Of a stretch of 50,057 nucleotides of DNA, positions 1-50,057 are shown one piece after another. Numbering within the stretch: position 1 is the stretch's first letter; each line of letters opens with the position of its first letter. Where the stretch lies: positions 1 to 50,057 of IMG/VR virus record IMGVR_UViG_3300042691_021864; one strand, 5' to 3'. The DNA is from a virus. The notes under the pieces were generated by a model, which searched no databases, had not been told where the DNA came from, and saw only the letters and a list, made by a program, of their open reading frames with translations. A program made the position numbers and the translations under genes.

Positions 1-40
1 CGCCCCCACAGAACGGACAAGGCAACAGTTTCTCGCTCAT
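1..40 (-). CDS. Lar-like zinc-finger protein, N-terminal part (continues at 50057)
   Basis: The ATG at 40-38 begins a leftward frame that encodes MSEKLLPCPFCGG and leaves the window at position 1. The first 13 codons and the ribosome-binding site are identical to those of the neighbouring gene at 244. An AAGGTGA Shine-Dalgarno lies just upstream. The frame continues into 50057..49864 if the molecule is circular. Confidence 0.7.
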   Translation of the reverse strand, partial: MSEKLLPCPFCGG

Positions 41-711: not shown

Positions 712-744
712 GGGGCAACGCCCCCGGGTCGGTCCTTATCTATG
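712..744 (-). promoter_or_regulatory. leftward promoter -10 and 5' leader hairpin
   Basis: Reading leftward, TTGACG (767-762), a 17-bp spacer and CATAGA (744-739) form a promoter. The predicted transcript start is near 732. The transcript then folds GGGGC-GTT-GCCCC (724-712) before the start region of the 507-692 gene. The arrangement matches the other promoter-hairpin units in this genome. Confidence 0.7.
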
Positions 745-796
745 CGCCCGGCGCAAAATGGCGTCAAGCGCAAAATACGGCTTGCGTCTGGCGCAC
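742..796. promoter_or_regulatory. divergent control region with three operator-like dyads
   Basis: Three 15-bp elements related to TTGCG-N5-CGCAA lie at 742-756 (ATGCG..CGCAA), 759-773 (TGGCG..CGCAA) and 782-796 (TTGCG..CGCAC), with centres 17 and 23 bp apart. The first two cover the -10 and -35 of the leftward promoter. The third starts at the -35 of a rightward promoter, TTGCGT (782-787), 17 bp, CATTTT (805-810). The layout resembles a triple-operator switch between divergent promoters, with the Cro-like gene immediately to the right. Confidence 0.7.
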
Positions 797-2704: not shown

Positions 2705-2758
2705 TTGCGCCCCGCGCAACAGTCGTGCATAGTTTGAAGGTGAACGGGGCAGCGCCCC
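2705..2758 (+). promoter_or_regulatory. regulon promoter P1 with operator and 5' hairpin
   Basis: TTGCGC (2705-2710), a 17-bp spacer and CATAGT (2728-2733). The dyad TTGCG-CCCCG-CGCAA covers 2705-2719. The leader hairpin GGGGC-AGC-GCCCC (2746-2758) sits just upstream of the GGAGA ribosome-binding site for the gene at 2771. Confidence 0.85.
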
Positions 2759-2770
2759 ACGGAGAGCGAC

Positions 2771-3010
2771 ATGAAACTGACCAAGCGGAACATTGAAGCG
2801 GCCCTGAAGACCGAGACCGGCGTGAGCGTCGAGTTGATCCGGGGTGAAGGCTACCACTACTTCAGCTACGAGCAGTTCTCGAACGGCCGGTGCATCCGGT
2901 ACGAGACCTACAGCGTCTATACGATGTACCTCAACGATCTGCCCTTGGACCGCTGGATGGCCGAGGGCCGCGAGTTCATCGACAGCCTGTGCCTTGAGGT
3001 GGCGGCATGA
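2771..3010 (+). CDS. hypothetical protein, 79 aa
   Basis: First gene after promoter P1; GGAGAGCGAC precedes ATG 2771. It begins with a basic helix (MKLTKRNIEAALKTETG) and has an aromatic middle (GYHYFSYEQF, YETYSVYTMYL) that suggests a small alpha/beta fold. It ends with a helix (WMAEGREFIDSL). I cannot assign a family. Its last codons overlap the next gene (ATGA), so it is co-translated with a run of five coupled genes. Confidence 0.7.
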   Translation: MKLTKRNIEAALKTETGVSVELIRGEGYHYFSYEQFSNGRCIRYETYSVYTMYLNDLPLDRWMAEGREFIDSLCLEVAA

Positions 3011-3243
3011 AGACCCTCCGCGACGTCCTGCCCCCGGAGGCGCTGGGCTACGGAGACGCCGCCCTCAACCGCCACCTTGACCGCCCGGTGGTTACCGAGT
3101 TCGGCGGGCCGGGAGAGCCCCGGAAGGCGTGGCTCGGCAAACACCGGAACGTGATGTGCTGGTGGCAGCTGGAAGGCGGCATCGCCGTCGGCTGGAACGA
3201 GAACCCCGGGCGCGGCTGGTCCTTCCCGGTGATCCGTGCCTGA
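3007..3243 (+). CDS. hypothetical protein, 78 aa
   Basis: Coupled to the previous gene by ATGA. The sequence is rich in Gly, Pro and Trp (MCWWQLEGGIAVGWNENPGRGW) with no recognisable motif or membrane segment. The W-x-GGIAVGWNENPGRGWSFPV end looks like two beta-strands. No function is assigned. Confidence 0.65.
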   Translation: MKTLRDVLPPEALGYGDAALNRHLDRPVVTEFGGPGEPRKAWLGKHRNVMCWWQLEGGIAVGWNENPGRGWSFPVIRA

Positions 3244-3254
3244 TCCTTCAACCC

Positions 3255-3267
3255 GGGGCGATGCCCC
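3255..3267 (+). promoter_or_regulatory. intercistronic GGGGC-GAT-GCCCC hairpin
   Basis: This is the same stem-loop as in the promoter leaders, but between cistrons and without a promoter. It ends just before the ACGGAGA ribosome-binding site of the gene at 3283. Confidence 0.75.
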
Positions 3268-3282
3268 ACGGAGACCCTGACT

Positions 3283-3522
3283 ATGTGCTACTACGACTAC
3301 GACGACCGGGGTGATGACGACCGCGACTTCGACGACGAGGACCGCATCCAGTTCGCGGACCCGGGTGGCCGCTCCGCCCTTCGCGCCGCCGGGCGGAATA
3401 ACCCACGCGACCGGCCGTGCCCGACGTGCGACACGCCGAACCGCCTCACCCGGGAGGACGTGCGCCTCGGGTATCAGTGCGACCGATGCGCCGACGCCGC
3501 CGAGCGGGGCTGGGGAGCATGA
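3283..3522 (+). CDS. acidic zinc-ribbon protein, 79 aa
   Basis: A very acidic N-terminus (DYDDRGDDDRDFDDEDR) is followed by a zinc-ribbon-like pair of knuckles: CPTC at about residues 46-49 and CDRC at about 67-70. The acidic half could mimic DNA or bind a basic host partner, while the ribbon could bind nucleic acid; both are inference. The ribosome-binding site follows a GGGGC hairpin. Confidence 0.65.
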   Translation: MCYYDYDDRGDDDRDFDDEDRIQFADPGGRSALRAAGRNNPRDRPCPTCDTPNRLTREDVRLGYQCDRCADAAERGWGA

Positions 3523-3713
3523 CCGTCCACCGCTTCCTCACCCGGGAAGAGCACCGGCAAGTCAGCGAGGCCGCCCGGAACGGGGCCAGCTTTGACCGGC
3601 CGGAGACCGCTTGCCGGACCGGCGACGGTCACGCCCGGGGCCACGAGAACTGGAACAACGTCAACTGCCCTGCCTGCCTCTCAGCGCGCGGCCAACGAGG
3701 GATGCCGAAATGA
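3519..3713 (+). CDS. hypothetical protein, 64 aa
   Basis: I chose ATG 3519 because GGGGAG sits six bases upstream and the start overlaps the preceding stop (ATGA). The open frame extends further upstream only through the previous gene. The protein has a LTREEHRQVSEAARNG helix and one CPAC knuckle near the end (NCPACLSARGQRG). A single Cx2C suggests metal binding as a dimer or with a partner. No family is recognised. Confidence 0.65.
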   Translation: MTVHRFLTREEHRQVSEAARNGASFDRPETACRTGDGHARGHENWNNVNCPACLSARGQRGMPK

Positions 3714-3901
3714 ACGGGGTGCCAATAGAGTTCCTGTCAATGGATTTGACCTTCGCGATCCTCAATGAGGGCCGCCGGGCGCGCGACCGCCAAGACGACA
3801 TTCTGTCGTGCCCATACGCCTTCTCGTCTGCCCGAGGTCGAATGTGGGTCCGGGGTTTTCAGTCCGACGACCCGGTAGGTCATCCGGTGGTGAAAGCATG
3901 A
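3710..3901 (+). CDS. ribosome modulation factor (Rmf)-like protein
   Basis: This 63-residue protein is coupled to its neighbours by ATGA at both ends. The core reads EGRRARDRQDDILSCPY, a short gap, then RGRMWVRGF. The same spacing of an N-terminal helix, CPY and W-x2-GW/F defines the Rmf family. Rmf in E. coli dimerises 70S ribosomes into inactive 100S particles in stationary phase. Phage copies are widespread but their role is unclear, with host translation modulation the simplest guess. The N-terminal extension (about 18 residues) is not part of the usual family core. Confidence 0.6.
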   Translation: MNGVPIEFLSMDLTFAILNEGRRARDRQDDILSCPYAFSSARGRMWVRGFQSDDPVGHPVVKA

Positions 3902-4185
3902 CGTTCGCTCTGGATGGCGCTGAGAAGGCCCTGTGCCGCGCTTCGTTCCTATGCACCCTGTACCCGGACGGTCCCCCGTCGCTCCCCCCGGGGCGGCTCT
4001 TCAACGGCTACAAGGTCGAAGCCTACGCCAACGCCTTCGGTGAGGGGCGGCCGGGCTTCGGAGTGAAGGTCATGCTTCGCCATGAGCCTACCGAAGATCG
4101 GCCGGACCTAGCCAAGCTCCGGACGGCTGGCGGCTTCATCCGCTGGGGCCCCGGGCCGAGCGTGGTTGATTGGAACGTAGGTTGA
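3898..4185 (+). CDS. hypothetical protein, 95 aa
   Basis: Start ATG 3898 overlaps the Rmf-like gene (ATGA) and is the last cistron of the P1 unit. The sequence has two central cysteines (LCRASFLCTLYPDG), a VEAYANAFGEGRPGFGVKVML strand region and a Gly/Pro-rich end (WGPGPSVVDW). No domain is recognised. The next promoter begins ten bases after its stop. Confidence 0.65.
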   Translation: MTFALDGAEKALCRASFLCTLYPDGPPSLPPGRLFNGYKVEAYANAFGEGRPGFGVKVMLRHEPTEDRPDLAKLRTAGGFIRWGPGPSVVDWNVG

Positions 4186-4194
4186 AATAACCGC

Positions 4195-4252
4195 TTGCGT
4201 CCCGCGCAAACCCCGGGCATAGTGCAGGGGTGAACAACGGGGCAGACGCCCC
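4195..4252 (+). promoter_or_regulatory. regulon promoter P2 with operator and 5' hairpin
   Basis: TTGCGT (4195-4200), a 17-bp spacer and CATAGT (4218-4223). The dyad TTGCG-TCCCG-CGCAA is at 4195-4209. The hairpin GGGGC-AGAC-GCCCC (4239-4252) precedes GGAGAA for the gene at 4266. Confidence 0.85.
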
Positions 4253-4265
4253 ACGGAGAACGAAC

Positions 4266-4835
4266 ATGAACGACACTGTGAAGAGCAAGCGCCCGCGCCG
4301 CCCGGCCGGATCGCGCAACTCGCCCCGCTCCGGCGAAATCAGCGGGTGCCTTGAAGGTGGCACGTCCGTCATTGAAGAGCTCAAGGACGAAATGTCAGAG
4401 TGGCAGTCCAGCCTTGAGAGCAACAGCATGGAGCACCTTCCGAAGTACGACGAGGTGACCGAGGCTGTGGATGCGCTGGAAGCGGCCGTCGATGCGCTTC
4501 AATCCATCGACTGCCCGGACTGGATCACCGATTTCCCGGTCTCCTACACGCAGGACACCCGGACCTCAGCCAACAGCCGCTCCGGCCGGATGGACAACGC
4601 CCGGCAGGAGCTCGACGCGGCGCTGGCCGGTGCCCAACAGTGGCTTGAGGAAAACGAAGAGCTCACCGCCAACGATCCGAACGACGAGGAAGATGGCGAC
4701 CCGGACGAGGACGAGGTGACCGAAGAGCAGGTCGATGAGCGCACCGAGCAGCGTGATGCAGTCGAGACGTTCGTCCAAGAGCTTGAAGACGCCATCGGTG
4801 AGCTCGACAACGTGTCGTTCCCCGGAATGTACTGA
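4266..4835 (+). CDS. acidic coiled-coil-like protein, 189 aa
   Basis: ATG 4266 has GGAGAACGAAC upstream of it; the longer frame from 4230 starts inside the leader and is not used. A basic N-terminus (KSKRPRRPAGSRN) precedes several predicted helices (VIEELKDEMSEWQSSL, TEAVDALEAAVDAL, ARQELDAALAGAQQWLEENEEL). A strongly acidic stretch follows (about residues 138-160, DEEDGDPDEDEVTEEQVDE), then a final helix. The charge pattern recalls DNA-mimic or anti-host proteins, but there is no family evidence. It is one of the longest early genes. Confidence 0.7.
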   Translation: MNDTVKSKRPRRPAGSRNSPRSGEISGCLEGGTSVIEELKDEMSEWQSSLESNSMEHLPKYDEVTEAVDALEAAVDALQSIDCPDWITDFPVSYTQDTRTSANSRSGRMDNARQELDAALAGAQQWLEENEELTANDPNDEEDGDPDEDEVTEEQVDERTEQRDAVETFVQELEDAIGELDNVSFPGMY

Positions 4836-4874
4836 CCCCTCGGCCGCTGCCCTCCCGGGGCGGCGGCCACCACC

Positions 4875-4887
4875 GGGGCGGTGCCCC
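4875..4887 (+). promoter_or_regulatory. intercistronic GGGGC-GGT-GCCCC hairpin
   Basis: Stem-loop two bases before the CGGAGA ribosome-binding site of the gene at 4900. No promoter is visible upstream, so it acts in a polycistronic message. Confidence 0.75.
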
Positions 4888-4899
4888 ACGGAGACGACG

Positions 4900-5130
4900 A
4901 TGATCGAATACTACATCAAAGGATCAGACCGCAGCCCCGGCGCTATCGGCGTCGGTGAGCGGTTTGGAATAACCGTTGTGGCCCCCGGAAACGCCAGCCG
5001 AGACGTGCTGGTCGGGCTTGCCATCAACGCCCGCTACGCCGCTGGCCGTGAGCACGTCACGGTTAGCATTATCGAACGCGGCCCCGCTGTCGCATCACCC
5101 GGGGCTACGCCCCAAGGAGACCAAGCATGA
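4900..5130 (+). CDS. hypothetical protein, 76 aa
   Basis: ATG 4900 with CGGAGACGACG upstream. An alternating hydrophobic pattern (IEYYIKGSD, FGITVVAPG, VLVGLAINARY, HVTVSIIERG) suggests a small beta-rich or alpha/beta domain. The last 15 codons read through the hairpin of the next gene, so this hairpin is translated. No function is assigned. Confidence 0.65.
   Translation: MIEYYIKGSDRSPGAIGVGERFGITVVAPGNASRDVLVGLAINARYAAGREHVTVSIIERGPAVASPGATPQGDQA
5101..5113 (+). promoter_or_regulatory. GGGGC-TAC-GCCCC hairpin inside the end of the upstream gene
   Basis: Same element as elsewhere, followed by AAGGAGA for the gene at 5127, but lying within the coding sequence of the 4900 gene. Ribosomes finishing that gene would open it. 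Confidence 0.7.
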
Positions 5131-5594
5131 CACCTACGGAAATCAGAGAGCGCTTGAACATTCTGGCCCAGCGCGTAGGCCCGAGGGCGGAAATCACCTG
5201 TCACATGACTGTCCGCTCGATCTATTCAGAAGGTGTTTCCTTCATGGTTTGGCCGGACGGCGTCGGCGGCAAGGGCAACACCGTTTCGGGGGGCAGCGCC
5301 TTAGAGTGGGCCGACGCGATGCTGAACGTCGAAACCAAGTGGGCTCAAGTGGAAGAGGCTCACAATGAGACCTTGATCCAGCGGATGGCCGAGAAAATCA
5401 TGCAGCTGACGTTCCAGCATGGGACGTGCACCGAGGGTGCCCTTCGCATTGACTTCGGCCAGCCAGAAATCGACCGCTTCGGAGAGGCCGCCGCCTCGCG
5501 GGCGAACGCCGTCGCTGACAAGGGCCCGTTCTCCATCGTGAAGGACGGCCCGGGCAACAGCCCCCCGGAAGACACTGAGGCGGAGGCAGATTGA
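5127..5594 (+). CDS. hypothetical protein, 155 aa
   Basis: AAGGAGACCAAGC precedes ATG 5127, and the start overlaps the upstream stop. The N-terminal half has a short alpha/beta pattern (TEIRERLNILAQRV, SFMVWPDGV, ALEWADAMLNVETKW). A middle helix (HNETLIQRMAEKIMQL) and an acidic tail (PPEDTEAEAD) follow. I do not recognise it. It is coupled to the 5594 gene by TGATG. Confidence 0.65.
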   Translation: MTPTEIRERLNILAQRVGPRAEITCHMTVRSIYSEGVSFMVWPDGVGGKGNTVSGGSALEWADAMLNVETKWAQVEEAHNETLIQRMAEKIMQLTFQHGTCTEGALRIDFGQPEIDRFGEAAASRANAVADKGPFSIVKDGPGNSPPEDTEAEAD

Positions 5595-6229
5595 TGACCT
5601 ACATCACCGAGCGTGAGAGCTTCGGCCGGATGATCCGGGAGCTCGACATTCACCGGCTGGCAACCGACGTGGCCCCGATGGTGGGCGGCGTTCCGCACCC
5701 CGGCAACACCGCCGAGCGGGACCGCCACTGGGGCGGCCGGGTTATCATGCCGTCGGGCGTGGTCCTGCTTTTCAGCGCCCTGCCCGGTTCCAAGTTCGGC
5801 CGGGCCGAGGTGCGGGCGACGTACCCCCATGAGATAACGATGAAGGTTCCCGCCTTCGGCACCGCCCCTGTCACCAGCATTGATGCGGAACGGTCGCTGA
5901 CTGACATAGCCCGGCAAATCGAAAGCCGGGTGCTGAAACCGGCGGCCGAAATGATGATGCTGCTGGAAGAGAAGGTGGCCACCTTTGATGCTCGCCGGGC
6001 GGAGGGAGAGCGGAACGCCGAAGCGATCCGGGTAGGCATTCCCGGGATGACCGTCGAGTTCAAAAAGGGGTCGGACCTTGAAGCCGTGCTGAATATGCCC
6101 GGGCCTCACTCTCGATACTTCATCGGCCGGATGAGCTACGATGGGTCGGTGTCCATCGACCGCATCGGCTCCATTCCCATGAGCCGGGCTATAGAGTTCC
6201 TGCCCGGCCTCCTCAAGAAGGACGCCTGA
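5594..6229 (+). CDS. hypothetical protein, 211 aa
   Basis: I use ATG 5594 (TGATG overlap) rather than the TTG one codon earlier. The N-terminal part (SFGRMIRELDIHRLATDVAP) is helical. The middle has strands around VVLLFSALPG and a long helix (LKPAAEMMMLLEEKVATFDARRAEG). It ends in LPGLLKKDA. It shows no catalytic motif. It sits between unknown genes and a small HTH protein in one coupled operon, and there is no evidence for a function. Confidence 0.65.
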   Translation: MTYITERESFGRMIRELDIHRLATDVAPMVGGVPHPGNTAERDRHWGGRVIMPSGVVLLFSALPGSKFGRAEVRATYPHEITMKVPAFGTAPVTSIDAERSLTDIARQIESRVLKPAAEMMMLLEEKVATFDARRAEGERNAEAIRVGIPGMTVEFKKGSDLEAVLNMPGPHSRYFIGRMSYDGSVSIDRIGSIPMSRAIEFLPGLLKKDA

Positions 6230-6516
6230 TGGCTGATCAAGAACGAGAGTTCAACCGCTTCATGGAAGGCCGAGACGTTCGGGCTGCCCGGGGCGCGTTA
6301 GGCGAGCTTTGGGGCCTCGGACGCCCTTTGACGATGCGCCAGATGGGTCGGGCCCTCCGCCTCACCGGCCGCAACATCGGAGCCAGCGTCCGGGACTACG
6401 AGCGCGGCCGAACTGAGGTCAGCGGCCCCCTGTCCGCCCTGATCGAACTGTACCTTCGCGGGGCTGCCCCCGTGGATGGCCTTGACGCGGTGCTGGAACC
6501 CGGAGAAGACGAATGA
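6229..6516 (+). CDS. XRE-type helix-turn-helix protein, 95 aa
   Basis: Residues about 35-72 form a Cro/XRE-like domain: LTMRQMGRALRLTGRNIGASVRDYERGR, then a helix LSALIELYLRG. The placement of the two HTH helices and the final helix matches antitoxin or small repressor proteins. No toxin partner is apparent; the next gene also carries a DNA-binding motif. It could be a second transcription regulator of the phage. It overlaps both neighbours by four bases. Confidence 0.65.
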   Translation: MADQEREFNRFMEGRDVRAARGALGELWGLGRPLTMRQMGRALRLTGRNIGASVRDYERGRTEVSGPLSALIELYLRGAAPVDGLDAVLEPGEDE

Positions 6517-6866
6517 GCCGTCGGACAATCCCCGAGATACGTCTGGCCCTGTACGCTCTCTCAGAGGCTATCAAGCGGGAGCCTATAGACCCGCCCATGA
6601 TCGAGATGGCCCGGCGCGAAGGCTGGGCCGCTGAAATCCGGAAGCTAGCCGACGAGACAAAGCGCGAGTATGGCACCCGGCCGCCTGCCCGGGCACGGGT
6701 CCGCATCACCGAGGCGATGGAAACCACGATCCGGGAGATAGCCCGACACAACCCGGGTTGGAGCCAGCAGCAGATCGCAAACCAAGTCGCGGTGATCCAC
6801 CGCCTGCCGACCTTCAGTGCCGGGCGGGTCTCAGAGACCTTGAACGGCAAGCGGGGTGAGCGGTGA
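6513..6866 (+). CDS. putative helix-turn-helix protein, 117 aa
   Basis: The N-terminal half is a helical region (EIRLALYALSEAIKREP, EMARREGWAAEIRKLADE). The C-terminal half (RITEAMETTIREIARHNPGWSQQQIANQV, then AGRVSETLNGKR) reads like a resolvase or HTH_38-type DNA-binding motif, with WSQQQIA and GRVSETL as the two helices. It follows another HTH gene with an ATGA overlap. Its role is probably regulatory, but the target is unknown. Confidence 0.6.
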   Translation: MSRRTIPEIRLALYALSEAIKREPIDPPMIEMARREGWAAEIRKLADETKREYGTRPPARARVRITEAMETTIREIARHNPGWSQQQIANQVAVIHRLPTFSAGRVSETLNGKRGER

Positions 6867-7051
6867 TTGAGGTCATAGTAACCGGCTCTCCGCCGGTCTG
6901 GATCAACACCGACTGGATCGAGGCGGTCATTGACCTCGGCGCGGCTGGCCGAAAGATCGTGATGCGCCAGCCTTGGAGCTCGTCGCCATACTACATCGTG
7001 GCGGAGCCTGCTCTGACGCTGATAAAGCGCATCCAGAACGCCGCCCGGTGA
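6863..7051 (+). CDS. hypothetical protein, 62 aa
   Basis: Starts at GTG 6863 overlapping the upstream stop (GTGA). Short strands (IEVIVTG, KIVMRQPW, YYIVAEP) and a terminal helix (LTLIKRIQNAAR) suggest a compact alpha/beta protein. It is the last gene before promoter P3. No family is recognised. Confidence 0.6.
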   Translation: MIEVIVTGSPPVWINTDWIEAVIDLGAAGRKIVMRQPWSSSPYYIVAEPALTLIKRIQNAAR

Positions 7052-7059
7052 AATAGCTC

Positions 7060-7115
7060 TTGCGTCCCGCGCAAACCTTGTGCATAGTGTGAGGACAGCA
7101 ACGGGGCACCGCCCC
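7060..7115 (+). promoter_or_regulatory. regulon promoter P3 with operator and 5' hairpin
   Basis: TTGCGT (7060-7065), a 17-bp spacer and CATAGT (7083-7088). The dyad TTGCG-TCCCG-CGCAA is at 7060-7074. The hairpin GGGGC-ACC-GCCCC (7103-7115) precedes AGGAGAG for the gene at 7131. Confidence 0.85.
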
Positions 7116-7130
7116 ACAGGAGAGACGAAA

Positions 7131-7388
7131 ATGGGAACCCAAGTCGAGACGCGCGACGGCAAGGCAATCTGCAAGCGGACCTGTAAAGCAGGGGTCGGCC
7201 GTTGTGTTGAGTTCTTCGTTCCCCGGGAGCGCTACATCGAAGTGGCCGACGTCCGGGTCCGCGAAGAGAGCGGTGGCGCTTGGATGACGGTTCACGGCTG
7301 GTGGCGGCGAGAGGTCCGCGCTGGCAACACCAAGGCGGTCTTCCCGTGCGGAACCGTCGTTGACGCCGCCCCGGCTTGGGCCGACTGA
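7131..7388 (+). CDS. hypothetical protein, 85 aa
   Basis: ATG 7131 has AGGAGAGACGAAA upstream. The upstream extension to 7080 lies in the promoter and is not used. Three cysteines lie in the first 35 residues (CKRTCKAGVGRC). The rest is strand-rich with a central GAWMTVHGWWRREV. Possible metal or disulfide site; function unknown. It is the only gene of its unit before the orphan hairpin at 7396. Confidence 0.65.
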   Translation: MGTQVETRDGKAICKRTCKAGVGRCVEFFVPRERYIEVADVRVREESGGAWMTVHGWWRREVRAGNTKAVFPCGTVVDAAPAWAD

Positions 7389-7395
7389 TCAACCC

Positions 7396-7408
7396 GGGGC
7401 GCTGCCCC
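7396..7408 (+). promoter_or_regulatory. orphan GGGGC-GCT-GCCCC hairpin with no gene after it
   Basis: This is a complete hairpin followed by ACGGAGA, but the only frame behind it is a 13-codon remnant (TTG at about 7438, stop near 7480). The stretch 7409-7551 shows no other coding signal and ends in a terminator, so a gene was probably lost here. Confidence 0.6.
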
Positions 7409-7551
7409 ACGGAGACACCGACCGGCGAGAAGCGATTGGTCCAGACCATGCACCCTCACGGCGATGTGTGCTTCTGACGCTTTTGGGTTGCCCGGCCGCC
7501 CGAGTTCCCATAGACCTATCCGGCCCTCTGGGCGTTTCCTCCCCCACTTCA

Positions 7552-7585
7552 CCGCCGCCACCTCCGGGTCGCGGCGGTTTTTTTT
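7552..7585 (+). terminator. Rho-independent terminator
   Basis: CCGCCGC, a 12-nt loop region, GCGGCGG and a run of nine T. It closes the P3 unit, about 25 bp upstream of promoter P4. The surrounding gene-free stretch (7389-7684) contains only the orphan hairpin, this terminator and P4. Confidence 0.85.
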
Positions 7586-7607
7586 TCGGCCAAGGTGAAA
7601 TAACCGC

Positions 7608-7660
7608 TTGCGTCCCGCGCAACGTATGGGCATAGTGTTTCTACACCGGGGCAACGCCCC
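7608..7660 (+). promoter_or_regulatory. regulon promoter P4 with operator and 5' hairpin
   Basis: TTGCGT (7608-7613), a 17-bp spacer and CATAGT (7631-7636). The dyad is at 7608-7622. The hairpin GGGGC-AAC-GCCCC is at 7648-7660. The ribosome-binding site CGGAGA follows ten bases later for the gene at 7685. Confidence 0.85.
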
Positions 7661-7684
7661 ACACCGCAGCCGGAGACCAAGACC

Positions 7685-7876
7685 ATGACCGCCCCGACCT
7701 TCCTGACCAGCAAATACGGCCCCTGCATCCACGGCGGCTTCACTCCTACGAGCCAAATCCGCCGTAACCGCGCCGGGGTCTACACGGTCATCGTTGACCG
7801 GGGCGGCGAGACCATCATCGCCAAGTCCTTCGAGTACCTTGAAGACGCGAAAGGCTGGCAGGCCCGGAACGCCTGA
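7685..7876 (+). CDS. hypothetical protein, 63 aa
   Basis: CGGAGACCAAGACC precedes ATG 7685. A pattern of short strands (GVYTVIVDRGGETIIAKSFEYLED) with a basic SQIRRNR segment recalls small phage beta-sheet proteins. No family is recognised. First gene of the P4 unit. Confidence 0.65.
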   Translation: MTAPTFLTSKYGPCIHGGFTPTSQIRRNRAGVYTVIVDRGGETIIAKSFEYLEDAKGWQARNA

Positions 7877-7896
7877 TCCGCCGCATCCCTCAACCC

Positions 7897-7909
7897 GGGG
7901 CATCGCCCC
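7897..7909 (+). promoter_or_regulatory. intercistronic GGGGC-ATC-GCCCC hairpin
   Basis: Followed at once by ACGGAGA for the gene at 7923; no promoter of its own is visible. Confidence 0.75.
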
Positions 7910-7922
7910 ACGGAGACCCGTC

Positions 7923-8117
7923 ATGAACGTCTATTGCCACCGCATCACCATCCAGCCTGAGGGTCGCCGCACCCGGTTCAGCTACGAGATTTACCGCAAC
8001 GGCCGGGTGTTCGGCGTGATGACCGGCTTTGCCACCCACGCCCTCGCCCACGCCGCCGCTTCTGCCCGCATCGACCAGCTGGCCCGTGCCGAAGACGCTC
8101 AACAGGACGCCGCGTGA
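7923..8117 (+). CDS. hypothetical protein, 64 aa
   Basis: ATG 7923 with CGGAGACCCGTC; the longer frame from 7794 overlaps the previous gene and is rejected. Strands (YCHRITIQPEG, RFSYEIYRNGRVFGVMTG) are followed by an Ala-rich helix (HALAHAAASARIDQLARAED). This strand-strand-helix plan is shared with several neighbours, but no domain is recognised. It overlaps the next start as TGATG. Confidence 0.65.
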   Translation: MNVYCHRITIQPEGRRTRFSYEIYRNGRVFGVMTGFATHALAHAAASARIDQLARAEDAQQDAA

Positions 8118-8638
8118 TGGAACTGATCGTCACCTACAGCAGCGTCGATGGCTACCGGTCCCGCCGGACCTTCAAGACCCACCCGGCGGCCAAGCGGTTC
8201 GCTGTCCGCTACGTCGGCCAGACCCCGGAGTTCGGACCCGGCTACGCCGTCGCTGATGACGGCATCGGCAAGGTCACCGTGAGCGGCTGCACACTGGCCC
8301 AACTGTTTGGGGACGGCCCTCCGCCCCCGGCCGCCTCGGCCGCGCCTGTAGCCCCCTCTCAGGCCGCTTCTGGCCCCATTGCCGGGGACTACGGCTGGCG
8401 GAAGAGCACGATCATCTACAGCTGGATCAATGACGCGGCGGTTGGTGTCGAGTACGAGCCAGTTCGCCGCTGCCCGGACGTTGCCACGGCTCAAGCCGAG
8501 GTCGAAGCTGAGTGGAAGCGCCTGTACGACGGCGGCTCAGAAGACGAGCGCATCGGCATTGAGGTGGTTCAGTTCAACGGCCGCTACTGGAACCGGGTGG
8601 CCGTCCTGAACGACTGCCCGGACGAAATCCCGTTCTGA
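8117..8638 (+). CDS. two-domain protein with an SSB-like acidic tail, 173 aa
   Basis: I use ATG 8117 (TGATG overlap) rather than GTG 8114. An N-terminal strand-rich domain (about residues 1-65) is joined by a Pro/Ala linker (PPPPAASAAPVAPSQAAS) to a second domain. The protein ends in PDEIPF. The phage SSB encoded at 47965 ends in NDDIPF, the tail by which SSB recruits partners. A shared acidic-IPF end suggests this protein could dock on the same SSB-interacting host enzymes. That is inference from six residues; the rest is unknown. Confidence 0.65.
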   Translation: MELIVTYSSVDGYRSRRTFKTHPAAKRFAVRYVGQTPEFGPGYAVADDGIGKVTVSGCTLAQLFGDGPPPPAASAAPVAPSQAASGPIAGDYGWRKSTIIYSWINDAAVGVEYEPVRRCPDVATAQAEVEAEWKRLYDGGSEDERIGIEVVQFNGRYWNRVAVLNDCPDEIPF

Positions 8639-8728
8639 TCCCCGCCGGGCTTCGGCCCTGATGCAGCACCCGCTGAGAGACCGCATAGGAGGCTATCATG
8701 AGACCGGGGGCGGGAAAGCCGCCCGAAA

Positions 8729-8776
8729 CCGCCGGAGCCCGTCCCCCCCGACCTTGGCTCCCGGCGGTTTTTCTTC
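8729..8776 (+). terminator. Rho-independent terminator
   Basis: ACCGCCGG-AGCC pairs with GGCT-C-CCGGCGGT (one bulged C) and is followed by TTTTTCTT. It closes the P4 unit and lies about 20 bp before promoter P5. Confidence 0.8.
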
Positions 8777-8795
8777 GCTCAGGTGAAAAAAGCTC

Positions 8796-8849
8796 TTGCG
8801 TCCCGCGCAAGCCTTCGGCATAGTACGAGGACTGAAGGGGATGATCCCC
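8796..8849 (+). promoter_or_regulatory. regulon promoter P5 with operator and 5' hairpin
   Basis: TTGCGT (8796-8801), a 17-bp spacer and CATAGT (8819-8824). The dyad is at 8796-8810. The hairpin is the variant GGGGAT-G-ATCCCC (8837-8849), so the stem is kept although the sequence changes; this supports a structural role. Confidence 0.85.
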
Positions 8850-8862
8850 ACGGAGAACGAAA

Positions 8863-9171
8863 ATGGCTACCATCGAACTGTCCGCCGAAGAGCGCACCGC
8901 CCGCCAGCTGATTGAGGCGGACCGCACCGCCGACTACGCCGCCAACGGCCACAACGCATGGGGGCAGATGCTCCGGTCCGCGATCCTAGCCTGCTGGGCC
9001 AGCGCCATGACGGCTGACCGCCTCGCCATCATCGGCGCGGCAATCCATTGTCAGCCGATCCCCTCCGAAGCACCGGAGGCCGTCAAGAAAGAGCTCACCC
9101 GGATGGTCCGGGCCAAGGTGCTCCGCTCCTATCTCAAGTGCGGCCGCCGCCTGTACGAGGTGAACTTCTGA
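8863..9171 (+). CDS. hypothetical protein, 102 aa
   Basis: CGGAGAACGAAA precedes ATG 8863. The sequence is mostly helical (SAEERTARQLIEADRTADY, WGQMLRSAILACWASAMTADRLAIIGAAI, EAVKKELTRMVRAKVLRSYL). One moderately hydrophobic helix is interrupted by polar residues, so it is probably soluble. No family is recognised. It overlaps the next gene as TGATG. Confidence 0.65.
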   Translation: MATIELSAEERTARQLIEADRTADYAANGHNAWGQMLRSAILACWASAMTADRLAIIGAAIHCQPIPSEAPEAVKKELTRMVRAKVLRSYLKCGRRLYEVNF

Positions 9172-9386
9172 TGGCCGCCAAGACCCCCGAAGAGCGCGCT
9201 CAGGACACCGCCCGGCGCTCCGACCTGTCCCGGCTGGAAACCGCATGGATCAACTATCACAACGCCTGCAAGGCGCTCTGGCGGACTACGCCGGGCACTG
9301 TCGGCTACAGGTCGGTGGAAGGCCGGGTCGCCCGGTACGAAGACGCCCTCAATGAGGTCCGTCGAGAGCTCGGTGCGATTTGCTGA
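9171..9386 (+). CDS. hypothetical helical protein, 71 aa
   Basis: ATG 9171 is coupled by TGATG to the upstream stop; the longer frame from 9048 reads through the upstream gene. Two charged helices (PEERAQDTARRSDLSRLETAWINYHNACKAL in part, and EGRVARYEDALNEVRRELG) look like a helical hairpin. Second and last gene of the P5 unit. Function unknown. Confidence 0.65.
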   Translation: MAAKTPEERAQDTARRSDLSRLETAWINYHNACKALWRTTPGTVGYRSVEGRVARYEDALNEVRRELGAIC

Positions 9387-9405
9387 AAAAAGTTCGCCCC
9401 GGGAC

Positions 9406-9459
9406 TTGCGCCAGACGCAACAACCGTGCATAGTCTGAGGGTGAACGGGGATGATCCCC
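9406..9459 (+). promoter_or_regulatory. regulon promoter P6 with operator and 5' hairpin
   Basis: TTGCGC (9406-9411), a 17-bp spacer and CATAGT (9429-9434). The dyad TTGCG-CCAGA-CGCAA is at 9406-9420. The hairpin GGGGAT-G-ATCCCC is at 9447-9459. Confidence 0.85.
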
Positions 9460-14934: not shown

Positions 14935-15555
14935 ATGACCATCCGCTCCTTCGGCCCTCACATCGTCTCAAACGCCAGCGTCGATCACCCGCAAGTGGAC
15001 GACCTGTTCGCTGACGGCCGGAAGGCCAAAATCTATTACAGCGACCCGCCTTGGGGTGAGGGCAACACGAAGTATTGGGCCACGATGGCGACCAAGAACA
15101 CCGGCCAGAACATCCCATCCATCGGGTACGAGACGCTGATCAACCGGATCATGAACCTGATCAAAACCCACGTCAGCGGCCAAGTCTTCATTGAAACCGG
15201 CCTGCGCTGGGAAGAGGACACGATCCAGCGCATGAAGGCCATTGGCCTCTCTAACATCGAAACCGCCCGGCTGCTGTACAACGGCGGCGGGAAGAAGCTC
15301 GAAAACGTCATCATCTTCGGCTCCTTTGACGGCTCCGTGGGTGACTTGAAGCGGGTTGCCGGGATGACCGGGCAGAAGGTGGCCGAGCTCGCTGTCGCCC
15401 CCTTTGCGGAGCCCGGGGCCATTCTCTTCGACGGGTGTTGCGGCATGGGCTATTCGGCCGCCGCCGCTATAGCCCATGGGATGCAGTTCCGGGGCAACGA
15501 GCTCAACGCGGTCCGCCTTGAGAAGACAATCGCCCGGTTGGAGAAGGCTCTGTGA
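14935..15555 (+). CDS. DNA N6-adenine/N4-cytosine methyltransferase-like protein
   Basis: This 206-residue protein has the catalytic motif IV SDPPWGEG (DPPW at 37-40) near the N-terminus. A SAM-binding motif I, LFDGCCGMGYSA (about 164-175), lies near the C-terminus, followed by GNEL. The IV-before-I order is that of beta-type DNA amino-methyltransferases. It is short and lacks a clear target-recognition region, so specificity may come from a partner such as the adjacent ParB-like proteins. AAGGAAACC precedes the start. It overlaps the next gene (GTGA). Confidence 0.75.
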   Translation: MTIRSFGPHIVSNASVDHPQVDDLFADGRKAKIYYSDPPWGEGNTKYWATMATKNTGQNIPSIGYETLINRIMNLIKTHVSGQVFIETGLRWEEDTIQRMKAIGLSNIETARLLYNGGGKKLENVIIFGSFDGSVGDLKRVAGMTGQKVAELAVAPFAEPGAILFDGCCGMGYSAAAAIAHGMQFRGNELNAVRLEKTIARLEKAL

Positions 15556-16688
15556 AGTTCTATCAGCAGGACAACGTATGGGACGCCGCCCTGAAGCGCA
15601 TCCACTGGCTTTTCGATGAGTTCGAGAACGTCTGTGTCGGCTTCAGCGGCGGCAAGGACAGCACCATCTGTTTGAACCTCGCGTTGAAGGTCGCGGAAGA
15701 GCGCGGCCGCCTGCCCCTAACGGTCATTTTCATTGACCAAGAGGCCGAGTGGCAATGCGTCATTGACTATATGCGCGTCGTCATGAACGACCCCCGGGTG
15801 GACCCGGTGTGGCTTCAGGTCCCGATCAAGCTGTTCAACGCGACCAGCACCACCGACCCGTGGCTGATGTGCTGGGAGCCCGGGAAGGAGTGGATAAGGC
15901 CCAAGGAGCCTAACTCGGTTCACGATAACGTCTTCGGAACGGACCGCTTCGGGGAGCTCTTCGACGCCTATCAGAAATGGCGCTGGCCGGGCCAGAAGGT
16001 TGTCCAGATCGCGGGCGTCCGGGCCGAGGAAAGCCCGGCCCGGTTCAAGGGTCTCACGACCTATGAGACCTACGGCGGGGAGACGTGGGGCCGGATCAAT
16101 GACAAGAAGATCGGCCACTTCACAATGTACCCCCTCTACGACTGGTCCTATACGGACGTCTGGAAGGCCATCCACGACAACGGCTGGGACTATTGCGCCC
16201 TCTACGACTATATGTACCAGCACGGCGTCCCGGTAGCGAATATGCGGGTGAGCAACGTCCACCACGAAAGCGCGGTGAAACAGCTATTTTTCCTTCAGGA
16301 GATTGAAGGAGACACATGGAACCGCATCGTGAACCGCCTGTCCGGCATCAACACCGCCGGGCAGCTTCAGGACAAGTTCATGACGCCCAAAAAGCTCCCG
16401 CCCATGTTCAAGGACTGGACGGAGTACCGGGACCATCTGCTGAAGCATATGATCAGCGATCCGGAGCACCAAAGGTACTTCCGGGAGACCTTCGCCGCGT
16501 ACGACGGCCGTTACTTCGGAAAGGCGGTCCCTGTCCTGCTAAAGACCCAAATCGCCTGTATTCTCGCCAACGATTTTCACGGGACCAAGCTGTCAGTCTT
16601 CGCCGCCTCTCACGGGGCCTACAGCATCAATCGTGGCAAAAAGGGCGGCCTCGCCATCAACTCAAGGACCGTCGATGACCCAGCCTGA
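15552..16688 (+). CDS. PAPS-reductase-like PP-loop enzyme (DUF3440/IbrA-like)
   Basis: This 378-residue protein has the PP-loop SGGKDST at 32-38, which binds ATP or PAPS in sulfurtransfer and reductase enzymes. VQIAGVRAEESPARF (about 150-164) and YPLYDWSYTDVWKAI follow, as in the PAPS-reductase superfamily. The C-terminal region (about 210-330) matches the DUF3440/IbrA layout as far as can be judged by eye. Relatives include IbrA and, more distantly, DndC of DNA phosphorothioation. The next gene is an IbrB-like ParB protein, reproducing the ibrA-ibrB pairing. It could activate a sulfur or base substrate for DNA modification; that is inference. Confidence 0.75.
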   Translation: MKFYQQDNVWDAALKRIHWLFDEFENVCVGFSGGKDSTICLNLALKVAEERGRLPLTVIFIDQEAEWQCVIDYMRVVMNDPRVDPVWLQVPIKLFNATSTTDPWLMCWEPGKEWIRPKEPNSVHDNVFGTDRFGELFDAYQKWRWPGQKVVQIAGVRAEESPARFKGLTTYETYGGETWGRINDKKIGHFTMYPLYDWSYTDVWKAIHDNGWDYCALYDYMYQHGVPVANMRVSNVHHESAVKQLFFLQEIEGDTWNRIVNRLSGINTAGQLQDKFMTPKKLPPMFKDWTEYRDHLLKHMISDPEHQRYFRETFAAYDGRYFGKAVPVLLKTQIACILANDFHGTKLSVFAASHGAYSINRGKKGGLAINSRTVDDPA

Positions 16689-45099: not shown

Positions 45100-45156
45100 G
45101 GGGCATCGCCCCGTGGTTGGTAGGATCACTATGCCCGGGGTTTGCGCCGGACGCAA
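45100..45156 (-). promoter_or_regulatory. leftward regulon promoter M2 with operator and 5' hairpin
   Basis: Reading leftward, TTGCGT (45156-45151), a 17-bp spacer and CATAGT (45133-45128). The dyad TTGCG-CCGGA-CGCAA spans 45142-45156. The hairpin GGGGC-GAT-GCCCC is at 45112-45100, and the 44615 gene follows. Confidence 0.85.
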
Positions 45157-45502: not shown

Positions 45503-45557
45503 GGGGCGGGATGCCCCGGGACCCTCAGACTATGCCCCATTGTTGCGCGGGGCGCAA
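45503..45557 (-). promoter_or_regulatory. leftward regulon promoter M3 with operator and 5' hairpin
   Basis: Reading leftward, TTGCGC (45557-45552), a 17-bp spacer and CATAGT (45534-45529). The dyad is at 45543-45557. The hairpin GGGGC-ATCCC-GCCCC is at 45517-45503, a five-base loop variant. Confidence 0.85.
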
Positions 45558-46362: not shown

Positions 46363-46415
46363 GGGGATCATCCCCTGTATGGAAACACTATGCCCGCCTG
46401 TTGCGCGGAACGCAA
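46363..46415 (-). promoter_or_regulatory. leftward regulon promoter M4 with operator and 5' hairpin
   Basis: Reading leftward, TTGCGT (46415-46410), a 17-bp spacer and CATAGT (46392-46387). The dyad TTGCG-CGGAA-CGCAA is at 46401-46415. The hairpin GGGGAT-G-ATCCCC is at 46375-46363, the same variant as in P5 and P6. Confidence 0.85.
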
Positions 46416-49529: not shown

Positions 49530-49612
49530 GGGGCCTCGCCCCGTTTCTGTAGAGTGGTCAGTATGCGCGCGGCGCAGTTATGACGCAAGGGGTTATTTTG
49601 CGTCGTCCGCAA
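49530..49612 (-). promoter_or_regulatory. leftward regulon promoter M5 with displaced operator
   Basis: Reading leftward, TTGCGT (49588-49583), a 17-bp spacer and CATACT (49565-49560). A dyad TTGCG-TCGTC-CGCAA lies at 49598-49612, about ten bases upstream of the -35 rather than over it. The hairpin GGGGC-GAG-GCCCC is at 49542-49530. It drives the recombination operon. Confidence 0.75.
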
Positions 49613-49864: not shown

Positions 49865-50057
49865 CACTCCCTCCCTGTATCAGTAGGGCGAAGGGCTGCG
49901 TAGAGGCGATGCTCACCGACGGGCATCTTGTTCCAGCTTATGAACTCCGGCTCCCTGCGGCCTTCACGGAAGGCAATCACGCAGGCCGCCTCCCCCTCTG
50001 GTGCAGGGGTGCGGCGGTTCCACATAGCGACAGGGGCCACAACGTCGGTTCCCGCGC
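49864..50057 (-). CDS. Lar-like zinc-finger protein, C-terminal part (continues at 40..1)
   Basis: This is a leftward open frame that enters from the right edge and ends at TGA 49866-49864. Joined across the window ends to the frame at 40..1, it gives a 77-residue protein. It has an N-terminal CPFCGG knuckle, then a MWNRR motif near residue 25, then about 50 residues ending in TGRE. Lar-family restriction-alleviation proteins typically pair CPFCGG with a C-terminal AWNRR, and here the usual middle is deleted and a new C-terminus added. The stop overlaps the next start (TGATG). The join is inferred from the continuous frame. Confidence 0.7.
   Translation of the reverse strand, partial: AGTDVVAPVAMWNRRTPAPEGEAACVIAFREGRREPEFISWNKMPVGEHRLYAALRPTDTGRE

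Follow-up and report, generated by a model that had tools for sequence, protein, structure and literature searches.

A symmetric dyad fused to the -35 element of predicted early promoters in a bacteriophage genome, with a Cro/YdaS-like candidate repressor

In the bacteriophage DNA of the IMG/VR record IMGVR_UViG_3300042691_021864 (positions 1-50,057, hereafter the window), a perfect 15-bp dyad, TTGCG-N5-CGCAA, occurs ten times, and nine of these copies form part of predicted promoters, with the dyad starting exactly at the -35 element. These dyads are probably operators of a dimeric helix-turn-helix (HTH) repressor that would block recognition of the -35 element, the most likely candidate being the Cro/YdaS-like protein encoded at 817-1050 (P0001). 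An earlier interpretation, made by a model from the letters and open reading frames (the sequence-only reading), had held that the dyad should be enriched over shuffled sequence, and so it is: ten exact copies were found in this 50-kb window against 0.10 expected, and none of 100 shuffles contained more than one. In a Markov simulation of 300 runs, the mean was 0.12 copies and no run exceeded the maximum of 2, and in an unbiased enumeration of the dyads in the window, covering all 5-base arms and spacers of 0-12, TTGCG with a 5-base spacer ranked first.

The nine promoter cassettes share a single layout on both strands, namely, the dyad starting from the -35 position, seven variable bases and a GCATAGT block at -10, followed by a leader of approximately 25-40 bases and by a start codon at a distance of 66-77 bases from where the dyad starts. 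Of the ten GCATAGT words in the window, nine are found exactly 7 bases 3' of a dyad. The six rightward promoters listed in the sequence-only reading (dyads at 2705, 4195, 7060, 7608, 8796 and 9406) all stand, each with an exact dyad and with CATAGT at N17; the list was incomplete, having missed the three minus-strand cassettes (dyads at 45142, 45543 and 46401), which match the rightward ones in layout, and the tenth dyad at 49598. An operator matrix derived from the nine canonical sites placed the ten exact dyads and three one-mismatch copies at the top of the window ranking, the nine being followed, after a clear step in score, by 742, 782, 49598 and 759.

In the alignment of the nine cassettes, the mean information content per column is 1.71 bits for the dyad and 2.12 bits for GCATAGT, compared with 0.62 bits for the 7-base linker and 0.3-0.8 bits for the upstream and downstream flanks. 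The right arm, CGCAA, lies outside every promoter hexamer and is nonetheless invariant in all ten sites, which argues for a DNA-binding protein and sustains the proposal that the dyad is a protein-binding operator over the -35 element. The same proposal had been argued from spacers that vary between fixed arms. The arms are indeed fixed; the variation of the spacer was overstated, because four of the six rightward sites have the spacer TCCCG (the first spacer base is a pyrimidine in 9/9 canonical sites), and the spacer-based argument is weaker for it. Better evidence of constraint comes from the 7-base linker, which is variable between two conserved blocks.

All exact dyads are located either between 2.7 and 9.5 kb, in an arm of rightward small genes past the replication genes, or between 45.1 and 49.6 kb, in an arm of leftward recombination and small genes that include Rad52-like, SSB-like (by sequence), Gp157-like and HNH genes. 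The intervening 35.7 kb (9435-45141), with the terminase, capsid and tail genes, contain none. With the exact dyads confined to the two early arms and missing from the structural and late region, the regulon is therefore an early-gene regulon and not the phage-wide one that had been claimed. The predicted promoter next to the tenth dyad (49588-49560) would serve the leftward segment encoding the Rad52-like protein (49411-48713).

Three further dyads, each with one mismatch, sit at 742, 759 and 782 between divergent promoters, adjoining the 817-1050 gene; no such cluster of three within 45 bp appeared in 300 simulations. A transcript from the rightward promoter of this pair would start at about the 817 ATG and would thus be leaderless. 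The product, P0001, matches an HTH PHROG family, and its AlphaFold model is a five-helix HTH fold (helices 12-20, 24-31, 35-42, 50-59 and 66-71; predicted local distance difference test score, pLDDT, 75) whose nearest neighbors in the PDB, as identified by Foldseek, are Xfaso-1 Cro and CP-933P YdaS. The YdaS protein of CP-933P has been shown experimentally to be a Cro analogue, and its gene is located between a CI-like gene and o (PMC8630535). In the present phage, the gene order is 817-1050, 1047-1454 and then an O-like initiator (1596-2372). A Cro/YdaS-type HTH, three degenerate operators around its own promoter and the first position in the replication operon together point to the 817-1050 product as the prime candidate binder, in agreement with the choice made in the sequence-only reading. 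The adjacent gene 1047-1454 encodes a 135-amino-acid protein that has the HTH of DnaA domain IV (PF08299, E 6e-11) but lacks the ATPase part.

Table 1. Promoter cassettes, additional dyads, candidate repressor gene and leader hairpins in the window
Feature	Position	Strand	Description	Associated gene
Promoter cassette 1	2705..2733	+	dyad TTGCGCCCCGCGCAA over -35, N7, GCATAGT	gene 2771-3010 downstream
Promoter cassette 2	4195..4223	+	TTGCGTCCCGCGCAA, N7, GCATAGT	downstream gene ATG 4266
Promoter cassette 3	7060..7088	+	TTGCGTCCCGCGCAA, N7, GCATAGT	downstream ATG 7131
Promoter cassette 4	7608..7636	+	TTGCGTCCCGCGCAA, N7, GCATAGT	downstream ATG 7685
Promoter cassette 5	8796..8824	+	TTGCGTCCCGCGCAA, N7, GCATAGT	downstream ATG 8863
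Promoter cassette 6	9406..9434	+	TTGCGCCAGACGCAA, N7, GCATAGT	downstream ATG 9473
Promoter cassette 7	45128..45156	-	TTGCGTCCGGCGCAA, N7, GCATAGT	downstream gene 45079-44615 (-)
Promoter cassette 8	45529..45557	-	TTGCGCCCCGCGCAA, N7, GCATAGT	downstream gene probably ATG 45483 to 45196 (-)
Promoter cassette 9	46387..46415	-	TTGCGTTCCGCGCAA, N7, GCATAGT	downstream gene 46349-46134 (-)
Tenth exact dyad	49598..49612		just upstream of leftward promoter TTGCGT-N17-CATACT (49588-49560)	
Two-mismatch dyad	49563..49577		overlaps -10 of leftward promoter 49588-49560; weak score, may be chance	
One-mismatch dyad	742..756		over -10 side of leftward promoter TTGACG-N17-CATAGA (768-740, -)	
One-mismatch dyad	759..773		over -35 of leftward promoter TTGACG-N17-CATAGA (768-740, -)	
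One-mismatch dyad	782..796		over -35 of rightward promoter TTGCGT-N17-CATTTT	817-1050
Candidate repressor P0001	817..1050	+	77 aa, Cro/YdaS-like HTH	first gene of rightward replication segment
Leader hairpins	2746, 3255, 4239, 4875, 5101, 7103, 7648, 7897, 8837, 9447, 9755	+		
Leader hairpins	49542, 46375, 46124, 45517	-		

The spacing of the hexamers is the normal N17, and the dyad spans approximately -36 to -22, with its center near -29, a position typical of repressors. The left half-site would itself be the -35 hexamer, and a bound dimer, with half-site centers 10 bp, that is, one helical turn, apart, would lie on one face of the helix and hide the -35 element together with the upstream part of the spacer, so that sigma-70 polymerase would be excluded. 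Given that the dyad covers the -35 element, repression, as had been suggested from the sequence, appears to be the natural reading. The nine near-identical promoters on both arms, along with the Rad52-side promoter, would be shut off together, and weaker, one-mismatch copies would act over the repressor's own and the divergent leftward promoters; because these copies are degenerate, the repressor's own gene should, on this model, be shut only after the nine targets. The result would be an autoregulated single-input module in which the early genes are shut down as the repressor builds up.

Neither a CI repressor nor an integrase was identified: the record, which may be incomplete, contains no match to the tyrosine or serine integrase families (PF00589, PF00239), and there is no S24 match in it either, with the proviso that the contig may have a gap. 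The leftward genes next to 742 encode small proteins with no HTH evident by eye. At the left end, a CPFCGG/AWNRR-type gene is duplicated (1-66, 207-270), with a CPFCGG-type start at 40..1 on the minus strand, and an AWNRR-type tail is found at the right end (50040-49864), ending near 50057. Judging from these sequences, the contig is probably not closed and probably represents a circularly permuted genome with its break in the duplicated gene, so a gap may be present. Conceivably, although we consider this a doubtful extension of the repressor model, a Cro/YdaS-type repressor alone, without CI or integrase, controls approximately 12 early promoters via half-sites that double as -35 elements. 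If so, the phage would have a lytic early-shut-off regulon, derived from a lambda-type switch or replacing it, via copying of the operator to every early promoter. The operator set itself hints at how a two-operator switch of the lambda type could spread into a genome-scale early regulon. It would also offer a natural, ready-made single-input module with nine near-identical promoters, one operator and one register, in which the sufficiency of a Cro-type protein for such a regulon is directly testable.

Several observations weigh against the assignment of the dyads to a repressor encoded by the 817-1050 gene. The similarity of P0001 to the Pfam YdaS family (PF15943) is below threshold (22.4 bits, E 1.1e-4; curated cut-off 30) and the Foldseek E-values are weak as well (0.04-0.06), which is unsurprising given the small size of the protein; a direct search of IMG/VR and INPHARED for relatives of P0001 yielded none, and no close one was encountered in other phages. 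No contig with a repeated cassette was detected in IMG/VR or in the GTDB genomes scanned: the dyad-N7-GCATAGT pattern matched four IMG/VR contigs, once each and with no other exact dyad in the record, and a stricter pattern matched the GTDB species genomes once, 5' of an infA-like gene, in a bacterial contig whose locus showed no repeats, both results being at chance level. Furthermore, the phage encodes other small HTH proteins that could bind the dyads (1047-1454, 6229-6516 and 6513-6866), so that the operators might belong to one of these, to a CI encoded in an unsequenced gap, for which the break of the contig within the duplicated end gene leaves room, or to a host regulator; relatives that have a few similar operators do possess a CI-like HTH gene besides the Cro-like one. 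We regard a different binder as unlikely, given that a cluster of operator variants is seen at the promoter of the 817 gene and of no other. Because CI and Cro normally share operators, a CI missing from the contig would act alongside the 817 protein rather than replace it, and a host regulator would leave both the confinement to two arms and the 742-796 cluster unexplained.

The poor fit of TTGCG to the TTGACA consensus is also a point against repression, as activator dependence is possible from the sequence, and the promoter scan produced no scored match at the dyad sites. An activator aiding polymerase at a weak -35 element is, however, improbable: activators usually occupy positions at the -35 element or farther upstream, and those of the MerR type need a longer spacer, whereas the dyad is centered between -35 and -10, at normal 17-bp spacing, and covers the -35 element itself. 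Recent duplication of one cassette, with a dyad devoid of binding function, could account for the TCCCG spacer and similar flanks (GAAATAACCGC) of four of the six rightward sites and for the repeated leaders; it is nevertheless very hard to reconcile with linker bases that vary between conserved blocks, with the invariant right arm, and with left-arm copies that keep both the dyad and the -10 block despite different flanks. Least credible of all is an antisense intrinsic terminator or an RNA hairpin. On the antisense strand, four sites are flagged by the terminator scan, as the A-rich block upstream then looks like a T-run, but only 5/9 canonical sites have four or more T in an 8-base stretch within 3 nt of the stem (the rest have 1, 1, 1 and 2), too few to retain the terminator, which we rejected. 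Short stems (-4.5 to -7.6 kcal/mol) also speak against it, and the dyad, being upstream of the predicted start, would be outside its own transcript.

Control of many phage promoters through one operator is a known idea, of which phage P1 and mycobacteriophage L5 provide examples; the symmetric operator embedded in the -35 element, the Cro/YdaS-type candidate and the apparent lack of CI make the system described here an unusual variant that shares the logic and differs in the type of operator. The C1 repressor of P1 acts at 22 sites per genome (PMC8546580) and, as one phage repressor with one operator repeated over the genome, is a closer functional precedent than the stoperators. P1 uses an asymmetric operator of 17 bp, ATTGCTCTAATAAATTT, whereas in the present phage the dyad is symmetric, 15 bp long and fused to the -35 element in a fixed register, and the candidate binder is a 77-amino-acid Cro/YdaS-like HTH protein. 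The comparison with repeated mycobacteriophage sites that was drawn in the sequence-only reading fits poorly beyond the many copies of one site for one repressor: in L5 and Cluster A, more than 20 asymmetric 13-mers are bound by a monomer in an orientation-dependent manner, many of them outside promoters where they stop elongation (PMC9283540). The 15-bp dyads described here are symmetric, with 9/10 at the -35 element in a fixed register and the tenth flanking a promoter. With lambda OR/OL and Cro, and with YdaS of CP-933P, the present phage shares a small HTH gene that opens the replication operon, an O-like gene downstream of it and three operator variants lying between divergent promoters. 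Whereas the action of lambda Cro is limited to OR and OL, the present contig has operators at nine further promoters, and it has no divergent CI gene. The actinophage phiC31, in which a symmetric inverted repeat recurs in early intergenic regions and is bound by the phage repressor, is a lead only, that repressor being, as far as we are aware, unrelated in kind to the 817-1050 candidate.

Related phages, to which the sequence-only reading had looked for the dyad, yielded a single exact copy in 17 records (G005-G012 and others) selected by capsid similarity (up to ~60% identical). In one of these relatives, G012, a P0001 homologue (36-38% identity) is divergent from a LexA-type CI-like gene and has its own, different dyads. 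In another relative, G026, a Cro-like HTH gene adjoins 15-bp TTGC-N7-GCAA operators that match the dyads described here in length and in outer arms. Both relatives thus place a small HTH gene of this kind next to a cluster of short dyads, in line with the choice of the 817-1050 product as the binder. Both have 3-4 sites of this type close to the switch, compared with the nine more promoters that carry the site in the present phage. Among the relatives found via the replication initiator (L104, L096 and Caulobacter phage Sansa), TTGC-type operators, namely, 15-bp TTGC-N7-GCAA and 13-bp TTGCATAATGCAA, form compact clusters around CI/Cro-like genes in L104 (10007, 10041, 10762 and 10821) and L096 (11873-13164), and no comparable dyads were present in the 40.8 kb of Sansa examined. 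The closest terminase matches are to a human-fecal phage record and Stenotrophomonas phage SOVA965 (62-63%).

An A/T-rich, UP-element-like block (GAAATAACCGC, GAAAAAAGCTC) abuts the -35 element upstream at 2705, 4195, 7060 and 8796. Directly 5' of the promoters at 7608 and 8796, GC-rich stems followed by a T-run are seen by eye (7553-7587 and 8731-8776), with loops too long for the terminator scan; their position suggests separately terminated units. A hairpin, GGGGC-N3/4-GCCCC (or GGGGATGATCCCC), recurs in the leaders ahead of ACGGAGA and the start codon; it has at least 15 copies, located at internal genes as well as at promoters. The exact pattern matched no other contig in a scan of IMG/VR; the start-associated sequences of Cluster K mycobacteriophages (PMC3203893) are similarly placed and differ in sequence. 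The phage also has a PAPS-reductase-like gene at 15552-16688 (PHROG 2302, E 9e-87).

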